Source: Coriobacteriia bacterium (GTDB taxonomy: Bacteria; Actinomycetota; Coriobacteriia; Anaerosomatales; Anaerosomataceae). Taken from it: DNA of 38,009 nucleotides. How positions within the stretch are numbered: the stretch's first letter is position 1; each line of letters opens with the position of its first letter. The DNA is taken from positions 1-38,009 of the forward strand of contig JAFGAG010000017.1 in the NCBI GenBank assembly GCA_016933785.1, read 5' to 3'. The position numbers were made by a program, and so were the translations under genes. The notes under the pieces were generated by a model. The model was not told where the DNA came from. It ran no database searches and saw only the letters and a program-made list of their open reading frames with translations. Below, piece after piece: positions 7,856 through 13,774 of the stretch.

Positions 7856-9214
7856 CTACACCACCAGCTCACGCAGCGCCGCTCGCACCGCCGCCGGCAT
7901 GCGCTCCCGCAGCCGCACCGGATCGCCCATCGCACGCGCAAGGATGCGCGTGGTGAACGGCTGCGCGGTCTCAACGATGTCGATCTCGGGATACAGCGCC
8001 CGGGCGACACCCTCCACCGTGGCCAGCGACTTGATGAGCAACCCGTACCCGCTCGGAATCGCGACGCCATGCTCGCCGAGCAGCTTCAGGAAGCCCAGCC
8101 CGAAGTGCGCGAAGTCCCGCGTCCCATCGGGACGGACATCGCCGTCGAGCAGGGCGCCAAGGCCCCGGCGCACCGGCTCCACATGCTCCGGCGGCACATG
8201 CACGCCGAGTTTCTCCGAGTATCGCAGCGCGCGATCTGGATCGCGGTAGATGAGCGCCGCCATCACCTGTGTGATGTTCATGCGCTCCTCCGGCGTCAGA
8301 TACCCGACGATGCCGAAGTCGAGATACGCGATCGTGTTATCGGGTGTGACGAATATGTTGGCCGGGTGCAGGTCGGCGTGGTAGCGCCCGTAGACGAACA
8401 CCTGCCGCATGAACGCGGTAGCCCCATGGATCGCGAGACCCTTGCAGTCCACACCCGCCTCGCGCGCGATCTCCAGGTCGCTCAACCGCCAACCCGTGAT
8501 GAACTCCATCGTGAGCACCTTGCCGGTGCTCCTCGTCCAGACGATCCGCGGTGCTTGCACCCTGGCGTCATCGCGGAAGTCGAACGCGAAACGGTCCGCG
8601 AAGCGGCCTTCCTGACGAAGATCGAGCTCGCGGTCGACCGTGGATGAGAACTCGTCGACCAGCCCGACCGGATCGAACCGCCGGGCGAGTCGAGTGCCGG
8701 CCATGCGTTCGGCGAGCCTTCGCACGATGGCGACATCCCCGAGTATGGACTCGGCCGCGCCAGGGCGGACGACCTTCACGACCACCTCGGCGCCTGCGGG
8801 GAGCACCTCTCCCCACACAGGTCGGTACGGGCTCGCGAGCGTCGCCCGGTGGACCTGTGCTATCGAAGCGGCGGCAAGGGGCTTGTTGTCGAAAGTCTCG
8901 AAGAGATCCTCCGGCTCGGCCGCGAACTCCGAGCGGATGACGGCGCGGATCGCCTCGGCAGGCAGTGGCGGAACCGCGTCTTGCATGCGCTGCATCTCGG
9001 CGACCAACTCGGCGGAGAACTCGTCCGGGCGCACGGAGATGAGCTGCCCGAGCTTGATGAACGCCGGCCCGAGCCGCTCGAAGGAGCGTCGCAGACCGCG
9101 CGCCCAGGCGGCACGACGTACGTGAGCCGGTGCGAGCCCGAAGCGCGCGGCGGGAAGCTGGCCTACGAGCTGGCCAACGATGACGCCGGTGATGACAACG
9201 CTGCGGGAGGCCAC
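7856..9214 (-). CDS. ABC1/AarF/UbiB-family atypical protein kinase
   Basis: FERLGPAFIKLGQLISVRPDEFSAELVAEMQRMQDAVPP (KxGQ motif), VFVYGRYHADLHPANIFVTPDNTIAYLDFGIVGYL. GTG start at 9214, 8 bp after the upstream stop. Confidence 0.9.
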   Translation of the reverse strand: MASRSVVITGVIVGQLVGQLPAARFGLAPAHVRRAAWARGLRRSFERLGPAFIKLGQLISVRPDEFSAELVAEMQRMQDAVPPLPAEAIRAVIRSEFAAEPEDLFETFDNKPLAAASIAQVHRATLASPYRPVWGEVLPAGAEVVVKVVRPGAAESILGDVAIVRRLAERMAGTRLARRFDPVGLVDEFSSTVDRELDLRQEGRFADRFAFDFRDDARVQAPRIVWTRSTGKVLTMEFITGWRLSDLEIAREAGVDCKGLAIHGATAFMRQVFVYGRYHADLHPANIFVTPDNTIAYLDFGIVGYLTPEERMNITQVMAALIYRDPDRALRYSEKLGVHVPPEHVEPVRRGLGALLDGDVRPDGTRDFAHFGLGFLKLLGEHGVAIPSGYGLLIKSLATVEGVARALYPEIDIVETAQPFTTRILARAMGDPVRLRERMPAAVRAALRELVV

Positions 9215-9222
9215 GGGGCGCC

Positions 9223-9564
9223 CTAACCGCCGACCTTGCGCAGGATCGTCTCCAGGAGCGACTCCATGGTGTCGAGGCGTCCGCGGAGTTCGGCCACCTC
9301 GAAGCGGATCTCGTCGAGCGCGGGATCGGCCGACTCCTCGCTCGCGACCTCCTCGCCACGAGCGCGAGCGGCAAGATCGGCCTTCAGCTTCTCTTTCTCC
9401 TCCTCGACCATCGCCGCCAGACCGTCGACGAACGCGTCGGGGCCTCCGCTCATCCCCTCGGGACCGCCGCTCATCCCCCGCCGGATGGCAGCTTTGATCT
9501 CCTCGTCGGCAGCCTCGTGCGTGAACAGCCATGTGGCGAAGAACCGCATGACATCGTCGGTCAT
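9223..9564 (-). CDS. Small coiled-coil, phasin-like protein paired with ABC1 kinase
   Basis: MTDDVMRFFATWLFTHEAADEEIKAAIRRGMSGGPEGMSGGPDAFVDGLAAMVEEEKEKLKADLAARARGEE...EIRFEVAELRGRLDTMESLLETILRKVGG; charged heptad-like C-terminus; same operon as ABC1 kinase. Confidence 0.65.
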   Translation of the reverse strand: MTDDVMRFFATWLFTHEAADEEIKAAIRRGMSGGPEGMSGGPDAFVDGLAAMVEEEKEKLKADLAARARGEEVASEESADPALDEIRFEVAELRGRLDTMESLLETILRKVGG

Positions 9565-9669: not shown

Positions 9670-12057
9670 TCATCGCTCCGGCGTGCGCCCCAGAAGCCGC
9701 AGCCCGTTTGCGATCACGAGCAGCGCGATCCCGGTGTCAGCGAAGACCGCCATCCACAGCGTCGCCTTACCCACGACCGCGAGTGCGATGAACACGACCT
9801 TCACGGCAATGGACGCAGCCACGTTCTGCCGGATGACACGCATCGTCCGCCTGCCGAGGGCGAGGAAGCGCGGCACGCCCGCGAGGTCGTCACCCATGAG
9901 CGCCACATCGGCGGTCTCGATCGCCGTGTGGCTGCCGGCCGCGCCCATTGCCACGCCGATGTCTGCCGTGGCGAGGGCAGGCGCATCGTTCACGCCATCC
10001 CCCACGAGCAGCACGGAACCGTAGCCCGCCCGCAACTCCTCCACGGCCCCGGTCTTGTCCTGCGGCAGCAGCCTCGACCGTACCTCTGTGATACCGGTCA
10101 TCTCCGCCACCCGGGCCGCGGCCTGCGGACTGTCGCCCGTCAACATCACCACGTGCTCGATGCCGCCCGCACGCAGCCCTTCCACAGCCGAGGCCGCTCT
10201 GGTGCGCACCGCATCGGCCACGCCGATCACGCCCAGTACGCGTGGAGGGACCGTGTCGTGCGCGAGCACGACGAGTGTCGTGAGGCCCTGAGCTTCGAGT
10301 TCGCCGATCGTCGTCTCCGCGCCGCCGGGTCCTGCCCCCTGCTCTGCAGCGCTCCGTGCGCTGACCACCGACACCTCGAGCCCATCCACCACGCCGCTCA
10401 CGCCGCGGCCGGGCTCCTCGCGCACGTCTCTCACTCCTGGAAGCGGACCCCCGACCGCCGCAGCCACCGCGGCGGCCAGCGGATGGTTGGAGTGCGCCTC
10501 GACCGCGGCCGCGAGACGCAGTACGCGGTCGGAGGGTTCATCGCCCAGTGCGACCACTTCGGCCACCACCGGCCGACCCTCCGTGAGCGTCCCCGTCTTG
10601 TCGAACGCCACGACCCGAATGCCCGCCGCCCGCTCGAGGAACGCGCCACCTTTCACGAGGATACCGTCGCGCGTGGCACGGGTGATGCCCGAGACGACCG
10701 CTACCGGCGTCGAGACGACGAGCGCACAGGGGCACGAGATCACGAGCAGCGTGAGGGAGCGATACACCCACTCCCGCCACCCTTCGAAGCCTGAGATGCC
10801 GGTCGCGAACTCGCCGAGCAGCGGACCGCCGACCGCAAGGGCGATCGCCGCGACGACTACGATGGGCGTGTACACGCGACTGAACCGGTCGACGAAACGC
10901 TGCACCGGTGCCCGGGTGGCCTGAGCGGATTCCACGAGCTCCACGATCCGAGCGATGGTCGTGTCAGTCGCCCCGGCGGTTGTGACGATCACGACGAGAC
11001 CCGATGTATTGAGCGTGCCCGCATAGACGAGGTCCCCGGGCCCCCGGTCGGCGGGTAGTGACTCGCCGGTGATGGGAGACTCGTCGAAAGCCGACCGCCC
11101 CTCGGTGATGCGTCCATCGAGCGGCACGCGCTCCCCAGGGCGCACCACCACGGACTCCCCGACGGCGACATCCTCTGGCCCCACCTCGAGTTCGACGCCG
11201 TCCCTGCGAACACGTGCCCGGGCAGGGGCCAGTGACATCAGCTCGCCGATCTCGCGCCTCGTGCGGGCCACGGAGCGTGACTCCAGCATGCCGCCGAGCG
11301 CGAACAGCACGATCACGGTGGCGCCCTCGCCCCACTCGCCAAGCGCAGCCGCACCCGAGACAGCCAGCGTCATGAGCACGTTCATATCGAGCGACCGCGC
11401 CATGAGAGAGACGACAGCACGGCGCCAGACGAGCGAGCCGCCGACGATGATCGCAAGCGCGTGAGCCGCCATCCCGGCGGTCTCGGCACCCGTCCACGAG
11501 AGCAACCATCCCACGATGAGCAGCGCCGCCGAGGCGGCCACGCTGACCTCGGTGCGGTTACGGGTCCACCACGAGACCGGCGGGAGCCCCGTGTCATCGG
11601 CAACAGCCAGCGCCTCGATGCCGTGTCCGGCGCCTACAACGATCGCCACCGCGCGCGCACGAGGGTCGTTCGCACGGTCGTACTCGATCCGAAGCAGGCC
11701 GGTCGCGAAGTTCACGTCGGCCGAGAGCACACCCGGAAGCTGCTGTACGGACTTTGCCACGGTCCGCGCGCAGTCGGGTCAATCAAGCCCTTCGAGGCGG
11801 TACACGGCGTGACCGAACGCATCGGCTTCCTCAAGTGCGCGCCGCTCGATCACGAGGTTCAGTTCTTCGAACGAGACCACCGACGGGTCGAAGGTGACCT
11901 CGAGCTCTCCCGCCTCGCTATCGCAGCGTGCGGTCAGAACACCTTCGAGTCCGCGAACGCCGGCGCAGATCCGCTCGGCGCACGCCACACAGTGCTGCGG
12001 ACCGGGAAGCACCGCGGCCAGGTCGAACCGGTGGGTCTCCGGCGCGGGATCGGCCAT
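9670..12057 (-). CDS. Heavy-metal-transporting P1B-type ATPase with two N-terminal HMA domains; in-frame TGA at 11779-11781 possibly decoded as selenocysteine
   Basis: ORFs 11779..12135(-) and 9670..11760(-) are in the same frame, separated only by TGA plus PDCART before the GTG at 11760. Merged reading: MADPAPETHRFDLAAVLPGPQHCVACAERICAGVRGLEGV...HAVYRLEGLD[UGA]PDCARTVAKSVQQLPGVLSADVNFATGLLRIEYD...; ATPase motifs CPC, DKTGTLTEGRP, GDGVNDAPALATADIGVAMG. ATG at 12057 sits 2 nt after the permease TGA. Confidence 0.8.
11732..11781 (-). promoter_or_regulatory. Candidate bacterial SECIS element (UGA plus downstream hairpin)
   Basis: mRNA after UGA: CCCGACUGCGCGCGGACCGUGGCAAAGUCCGUACAGCAGCUUCCGGG. 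Manual pairing: nt1-4/44-47 (CCCG/CGGG), nt6-9/36-39 (CUGC/GCAG), nt12-17/27-32 (GCGGAC/GUCCGU); apical loop CGUGGCAAA starts 17 nt after UGA with G at loop position 2. Confidence 0.55.
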
Positions 12058-12059
12058 CG

Positions 12060-12857
12060 TCACGCGACGTCCCGCCGCGAGAAGACGACCACCGCCGCGA
12101 TCAGGCTGACAAGCGCGATGCCCCCGTAGAGCCACCAGGCCTCGGAGGCGACCTGCTCGCCGTTGATGAGGAGTCCCGGCTGCCAGTAGGCGATGACGTT
12201 GACGGGGCCGAGCGCCTCAGCGGCCTCCGAGGCGCCAGACAGCAGATCGGCGACCCACAGCGTGCCGAGCAGTCCGGCCGCTATCGCACCCGGCTTGCCG
12301 CCGCCCCGGAAAATGGCCGATAGCAGCATCGCGAATCCGCCCACCGCGAGAACGAACAGTGTGCCGAAGGCGATCAGCATCCCGGTCACGTCCCAGCCGA
12401 GGTTGATGTCGTAGGTCGGCCCGAAGACCTCGAGCGGCACGAAGCTCGCCATGGCGAGCACGACCGCGTACACCACAAGCACGATCACACGCGTCAGCGC
12501 GACTTTCACCCGCGAGACCGGCTGCGAGAGCACGAACTCCATCGTGCCGGCAGCGATCTCACCGGCGAACGCACGCGAGGCGTAGATGATGACCGCCGAA
12601 CTCACGATGAGGATCCACATGATGCCGAGATACTCGGTCTGGAAGTAGCCACCGAGCGATGAGAACGGCACCTCCGAGCCGCCGAACACAGCGAGCAACT
12701 CCGGTGGGAACGTCTCGATGATGTTCGCGTACTCCTCACCGATGGTCGGGTAGAACCACGTCATCATCCAGGCATACGAGACCAAGCCGATCGCGAACCA
12801 GAACATGGAGGTGCGGTGCTGATGCAGTGTGGCCTTGAAAAGTGTCCAGCTCATCAC
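12060..12857 (-). CDS. ABC transporter permease (ABC-2 type)
   Basis: Six-TM-like protein MMSWTLFKATLHQHRTSMFWFAIGLVSYAWMM...AGEIAAGTMEFVLSQPVSRVKVALTRVI; start overlaps stop of the upstream ATP-binding gene. Confidence 0.88.
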   Translation of the reverse strand: MMSWTLFKATLHQHRTSMFWFAIGLVSYAWMMTWFYPTIGEEYANIIETFPPELLAVFGGSEVPFSSLGGYFQTEYLGIMWILIVSSAVIIYASRAFAGEIAAGTMEFVLSQPVSRVKVALTRVIVLVVYAVVLAMASFVPLEVFGPTYDINLGWDVTGMLIAFGTLFVLAVGGFAMLLSAIFRGGGKPGAIAAGLLGTLWVADLLSGASEAAEALGPVNVIAYWQPGLLINGEQVASEAWWLYGGIALVSLIAAVVVFSRRDVA

Positions 12858-13774
12858 TCCTCCCCTCCTTCGGCAGCGACAGGTTCGGCAGTGTCCCGGT
12901 AGTACTCGAGGAAGACGTCCTCGAGACTCGCCTGTTGGATATGCAGATCCAGGACCTGCCGCTCTGCGACACGCTTGATGAGGGCGTCCACCGCGTCACC
13001 CCGAGCGCGGGCGGTCAACGACGTGGCGCTGATGGCTGTCACGTTGTCCACACCGGGCACCTGGGCGAGCAACGCGGGATCGACCGGCTCGGCGAACTCG
13101 ACGCCCACCTGCCGCAGCCGCTTGCCGAGGAGCGCCTTGACGCCCTCCTCGGCTACGAGTTGTCCGCCGCGGATGATACCGACGGTGTCGCACACCCGCT
13201 CGACCTCGGAGAGGACGTGGCTCGAGAGGAAGACCGTGCGGCCCTCGGCCACCCGCTCCTCGATGACCGAGTAGACGGTCTCCTGGTTGAGCGGGTCCAG
13301 CCCGCTCGTCGGTTCGTCGAGAATCAACAGCTCGGGGTCGTGTGCGAGCGCGAGGATGAGCGCGAGCTTCTGCTTGTTGCCCTTGGAGAGTTCGCGGACA
13401 CGTCGCGACGGGTCGAACTCGAACCGCTCCAGCAGCTCATCGGCAAGTCTCCCCTTGCCACCGCGGAAGCCCGCCGCGTACTGCATGTGCCAGCGGCCGG
13501 TCTCCTTCTCGTACAGCCGCACCTCACCGGCCACATAGCCGATATGGTGCCGCAGGTCCGCGCCGTCGAGAGAGACCGCTTCACCGAGCAGAGTCGCACT
13601 GCCAGACGTCGGCTTGAGCATGCCGAGCAGGCAGCGGATCGTCGTCGTCTTCCCGGCCCCGTTCGGTCCCAGGAACCCGTAGACCGCCCCCTGCGGGACG
13701 CTCATGGTGAGATCGGCCACGCCTTTGGTCTTGCCGTAGTACTTGGTCAGCGATCGGGTGCTGATTACATCCAT
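12854..13774 (-). CDS. ABC transporter ATP-binding protein
   Basis: Walker A GPNGAGKTTTIR, signature LSKGNKQKLALILALAHDPELLILDEPTSGLDPL, H-loop LSSHVLSEVERV. Confidence 0.96.
   Translation of the reverse strand: MDVISTRSLTKYYGKTKGVADLTMSVPQGAVYGFLGPNGAGKTTTIRCLLGMLKPTSGSATLLGEAVSLDGADLRHHIGYVAGEVRLYEKETGRWHMQYAAGFRGGKGRLADELLERFEFDPSRRVRELSKGNKQKLALILALAHDPELLILDEPTSGLDPLNQETVYSVIEERVAEGRTVFLSSHVLSEVERVCDTVGIIRGGQLVAEEGVKALLGKRLRQVGVEFAEPVDPALLAQVPGVDNVTAISATSLTARARGDAVDALIKRVAERQVLDLHIQQASLEDVFLEYYRDTAEPVAAEGGEE

Follow-up and report, generated by a model that had tools for sequence, protein, structure and literature searches.

A probable bacterial SECIS element downstream of an in-frame UGA codon in a P1B-type metal ATPase gene of a Coriobacteriia bacterium

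The ATPase gene and its in-frame UGA codon

The stretch of DNA analyzed here (termed the window; 38,009 nucleotides [nt]) carries on its minus strand a gene for a P1B-type ATPase that starts with an ATG at position 12057 and ends with an ordinary TGA stop codon at 9672-9670. Codon 93 is an in-frame UGA; if it is read through, the gene encodes a protein of 795 amino acids (aa), and homology runs across the UGA over the full length of this protein. Open reading frame (ORF) calling across the locus gives only a 696-aa ORF with a GTG start at 11760. Reading through the UGA corrects the gene annotation, which automatic callers would truncate or start too late. The features of the locus are as follows.

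9670..12057, minus strand: P1B-type ATPase gene (ZntA-like, Zn/Cd/Pb), read through the UGA (TIGR01525, PF00122, PF00702, alignment to ZntA 4umv)
11674..11805, minus strand: second HMA metal-binding domain, interrupted by the UGA (PF00403, residues 86-129; aligns with ZntA domain 1mwy)
11779..11781, minus strand: in-frame UGA, probable selenocysteine (Sec) codon, residue 93 from the ATG (aligned codon TGA or TGC/TGT only)
11732..11778, minus strand: candidate SECIS hairpin region, the 47 nt 3' of the UGA (RNAfold and conservation)
11775..11778, minus strand: basal stem arm CCCG, partner CGGG at 11732-11735 (79.3% of cells paired; largely dictated by the protein codons)
11770..11773, minus strand: lower stem arm CUGC, partner GCAG at 11740-11743 (82.6% of cells paired; less conserved)
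11762..11767, minus strand: upper stem 5' arm GCGGAC, nt 12-17 after the UGA (100% of cells paired in the 23 sequences of the same geometry)
11753..11761, minus strand: apical loop CGUGGCAAA, with G at position 2 (from the fold; conserved CGTG loop start)
11747..11752, minus strand: upper stem 3' arm GUCCGU, nt 27-32 after the UGA (pairing conservation)

The protein scores 568.7 bits against the TIGR01525 model for heavy metal translocating ATPases (cut-off, 346.25), as expected of a P1B ATPase core, and contains two HMA stretches together with the E1-E2 (PF00122) and hydrolase (PF00702) domains. It aligns with ZntA (PDB 4umv) over 706 residues (E value, 4e-123), and the membrane CPC, K, and ADTG regions are common to both. 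The CPC, NxxxSIAxK, and ADTG regions presumably place the protein in the Zn/Cd/Pb (P1B-2) subtype. The UGA occupies the first Cys position of the second HMA motif, GLD-U-PDC, which aligns with the G-M-D-C-x-x-C of the ZntA HMA domain (1mwy; GMDCAAC in ZntA). Where ZntA has Cys, the window protein would have Sec, and it differs from ZntA also by an extra N-terminal HMA-like domain with a CVAC motif.

Selenoproteins of the cation-transporting ATPase E1-E2 family with a UxxC motif have been described before (TIGR01525/COG2217 ZntA; reference, ABB15669.1; PMC13188914, PMC9312934, PMC2398784, PMC5029168), and the selenium-containing ATPase family comprised 25 organisms in one of these studies (PMC5029168). 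The match to the TIGR01525 core model and the position of the predicted Sec support membership of the window protein in this family; its UGA takes the place of the first Cys in the CxxC of the HMA domain, and Cys homologs exist. Within the family, it is distinguished by having two HMA domains with the predicted Sec in the second only and by its origin in a Coriobacteriia/Anaerosomatia-related actinobacterial lineage, in which we found no description of Sec ATPases in the open-access literature. Selenium-containing metal pumps and their mechanism are thus already known, and the window gene is very probably a solid new example of them.

Directly upstream of the ATPase gene (12060-13774) lie an ABC permease gene, whose stop adjoins the ATPase start, and an ABC ATPase gene; small phasin-like and AarF/ABC1-kinase-like genes are located downstream (7856-9564). 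These neighbors were named by sequence impression. The upstream ABC genes are conserved in L019, L020, L035, and L066, and the phasin-like and AarF-like genes are conserved more widely than the ABC pair, Cys relatives included.

The hairpin downstream of the UGA

The original prediction, made by manual pairing, held that the 47 nt after the UGA form a long interrupted stem (CCCG/CGGG, CUGC/GCAG, and GCGGAC/GUCCGU) with a 9-nt apical loop, CGUGGCAAA, that begins 17 nt after the UGA and carries a G at position 2. RNAfold returned the identical structure, including the loop. The prediction had also claimed agreement with the general bacterial SECIS (bSECIS) model, and this held throughout. According to that model, a 3- to 9-nt apical loop with a G among its first two positions is carried by an upper stem of 4 to 16 bp at a UGA-to-loop distance of 16 to 37 nt, with a minimum free energy (MFE) of −7.5 kcal/mol or lower (PMC13188914). 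The stem-loop in the window lies inside the coding region, directly 3' of the UGA, with a 6-bp upper stem, a spacing of 17 nt, and a 9-nt loop that begins CGUGG, and its MFE is −18.5 kcal/mol for the 53-nt segment 11784-11732 and −13.9 kcal/mol for 42 nt. It therefore falls wholly inside the model (G then U in the loop; 17-nt spacing). A search of Rfam gave no family match.

The prediction had warned that GC-rich sequence folds easily, a caveat that proved justified. Hairpins that fit the generic bSECIS model follow 18.8% of all 929 TGAs in the GC-rich window and 18.5% of its TGC/TGT triplets. The hairpin does not fold better than dinucleotide shuffles, 30 of 200 of which were equally stable (z = −1.01), and its MFE is likewise unexceptional among synonymous-codon redraws (P = 0.29). 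Since about 19% of these TGA and TGC/TGT triplets pass the bSECIS filter and the energy lies within that of the shuffles, the evidence from the single sequence is weak. Folding-energy tests, both by shuffles and by synonymous MFE redraws, have little power here: the mean z was −1.12 for Sec genes versus −0.19 for Cys genes, and only 12% of the window-type Sec orthologs reached P < 0.05.

Conservation and covariation in Sec and Cys relatives

Homologs were collected by a contig database search and from 296 genomes belonging to the same class; as these two sets overlap, each distinct 51-nt stretch entered the tests only once. The codon aligned with the UGA is TGA in 68, TGC in 56, and TGT in 25 of 149 homologous loci, with no other codon or stop at this site. 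A stem was scored as present if it had at least 5 Watson-Crick pairs, a loop starting at an offset of 16 or 17 nt from the codon, and a G in the first two loop positions, and expected values were obtained by redrawing synonymous codons from each gene's own usage. By this position-specific test, which was shaped after the sequences had been viewed and in which related sequences are not independent, the stem was present in 33 of 34 distinct window-type Sec orthologs (2.2 expected) and in 0 of 29 Cys orthologs (0.37 expected). The Cys homologs thus lack the hairpin, a loss that the original prediction had proposed as a check. Across all sub-families, 36 of 48 Sec sequences (2.25 expected) and 0 of 79 Cys sequences had the stem. 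Phylogenetically independent Sec/Cys pairs favored Sec by 4 or 5 to 0 with 1 or 2 ties, and they are too few to be significant alone (P = 0.06 to 0.125).

Codon choice follows the stem. In the 26 Sec genes that encode Arg-Thr...Ser after the UGA, Arg is encoded by CGG in 23 (6.5 expected from the same genes), Thr by ACC in all 26 (11.4 expected), and Ser by TCC in 23 (6.3 expected). The corresponding codons in the two Cys genes that encode these residues are CGC/CGA, ACG, and TCG.

Two geometries were found among the window-type Sec sequences: 23 have a 9-nt loop (pairs 12-17/27-32), as in the window, and 11, from sister clades, have a 5-nt loop (pairs 12-17/23-28) and a 3' arm displaced by 4 nt. 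The start of the loop and its spacing from the UGA are identical in both, and each class has a single sequence that departs from the CGTG loop start. In the 9-nt-loop class, all cells (100%) of the upper stem are paired, and five of its six pairs are invariant. In the 5-nt-loop class, columns 19 and 27 pair as G-C in 6 sequences and as A-U in 5, and the pair is broken in none, a clean compensatory change within this one geometry class. The A/G change in column 19 replaces Ala by Thr or vice versa, and its partner is the synonymous wobble base of a Gly or Ser codon; none of 500 shuffles reached the observed double changes, and every slid register was worse. The functional core of the hairpin is the 6-bp upper stem with the loop start. 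Of the long interrupted stem originally proposed, this upper part is conserved, and the lower stems, paired in only 83% and 79% of cells, are less so. The original prediction had named a folding energy no better than that of shuffled or Cys-homolog sequences as grounds for its refutation; the raw energy does lie within the shuffles, but the stem, strongly conserved at its position in Sec genes, missing from Cys genes, and subject to compensatory change, supports the prediction.

On the tree, 3 changes are needed between the 9-nt and 5-nt geometries. The tree also requires 10 changes between Sec and Cys, 6 of them forced by well-supported branches. At one locus (L148, in genome G022, 99% complete), a TGC Cys codon is followed by CAGACGGTGGCCAAGTCCGT, which resembles a decayed 9-nt-loop SECIS; selA, selB, and selD were not found above cut-off in this genome, suggesting loss of the Sec trait. 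With its natural Sec/Cys switches and two SECIS geometries, the lineage offers a large sample of Sec metal pumps that is useful for testing the requirements of SelB and the reason for selenium use by a metal pump.

Selenocysteine machinery and interpretation

The source genome bin (77% complete; contamination, 4.97%) contains selB (378.8 bits; cut-off, 242), the gene on whose presence the original prediction depended, and adjoining it selA (614.6 bits). It also contains two selD genes (C84:5582-6499 and C32:5798-6715), each with a Sec codon in the motif KAG-U-AAK; their products are identical at 269 of 306 residues (88%), and they are either paralogs or a product of partial contamination of the bin. 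A tRNA-Sec was not found in this 77%-complete bin, nor by ARAGORN on the contigs with selAB and selD. The RF01852 matches in the source genome were ordinary tRNAs (e.g., tRNA-Ser and tRNA-Leu) and were rejected. The selB contig ends about 1.5 kb beyond selB. In two genomes of the same genus (G016 and G095), tRNA-Sec lies within 0.1 kb of selB, and in some other members of the family it lies about 5 kb away.

A window-type Sec gene is present in 35 genomes, and in 29 of these (hand count) selB scores above cut-off. In two of the other six, G047 (98% complete) and G051 (96%), which have the ATPase gene with UGA, selA, selB, and a clear tRNA-Sec were not found; the SelD of both carries an in-frame TGA, which makes a missing contig likelier than true absence of selA and selB, and the finding is probably a gap in the bins. 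In one other family of the class, selB was found in none of the 9 Cys genomes checked.

Together, these data make it very probable that the hairpin is a true bacterial SECIS element and that the gene around it encodes a selenoprotein. A ribosome at the UGA (11781-11779) would meet SelB, loaded with Sec-tRNA-Sec and bound to the hairpin 17 nt downstream; SelB would recognize the upper stem GCGGAC/GUCCGU and the loop starting with CGUG, and the UGA would be decoded as Sec. The product would be a metal exporter of the P1B-2 (Zn/Cd/Pb) type whose second cytoplasmic HMA domain binds metal via U-P-D-C instead of C-P-D-C, with Sec acting perhaps as a metal ligand or as a redox-sensitive residue.

Were the UGA a true stop codon, or the gene a decaying pseudogene, the hairpin would be a coincidence of GC-rich sequence and the 696-aa ORF would be translated alone from the GTG at 11760. 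The presence of that start and a folding energy within the range of shuffles would fit, but 48 distinct sequences, spread over many genera and several sub-families of the protein, have the same UGA, nearly all flanking codons stay homologous while the site itself is only TGA or Cys, and the stem is conserved far beyond expectation (33 of 34 versus 2.2). A start at 11760 would moreover remove the metal-binding loop along with the beginning of the second HMA domain. We regard this explanation as very improbable.

Still less credible is a UGA read as an ordinary amino acid, by an alternative code or near-cognate read-through and with no SECIS involved. The frame is indeed open through the UGA, but the same gene terminates at the TGA at 9672-9670 and close relatives align to about this point, which indicates that TGA is a stop codon in the source genome, and the Sec machinery is present. 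It is similarly hard to believe that protein sequence and codon bias alone account for the conserved codons after the UGA, with the real SECIS, if any, elsewhere. The conserved peptide PDCARTV(A/G)(K/A)S does fix most first and second codon positions; redraws from each gene's own synonymous usage nevertheless retain the stem in only 2.2 of 34 sequences against 33 observed, and in Cys orthologs that share a peptide of the ARTV-KS type, the codons CGA/CGC, ACG, and TCG disrupt the stem.

If the hairpin is accepted as a SECIS, a further reading can be offered tentatively, and we consider it possible though rather less probable than its negation: Sec would be a direct soft-metal ligand and not a redox catalyst, and the SECIS would have been rebuilt several times inside the coding sequence, the 5' arm and CGUG (nt 12-21) staying fixed and the 3' arm jumping by 4 nt, for which the tree needs at least 3 changes. 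In that case, recognition by the SelB of this lineage would depend on the 5' side and on the spacing, and loop size would play no part.

A second sub-family of Sec-containing P1B ATPases, with the motif GIT-U-LDCAAKFEKNV, was encountered in the same order and often in the same genomes (L151 to L163; examples are G031, G057, G045, G113, G028, G013, G121, G003, G117, G079, G049, and G105). The hairpin after its UGA reads GGCCA-A-GUUC-GAGAA-GAAC-G-UGGCC, and in L151 both sides of one pair are changed (GGCGA/UCGCC).
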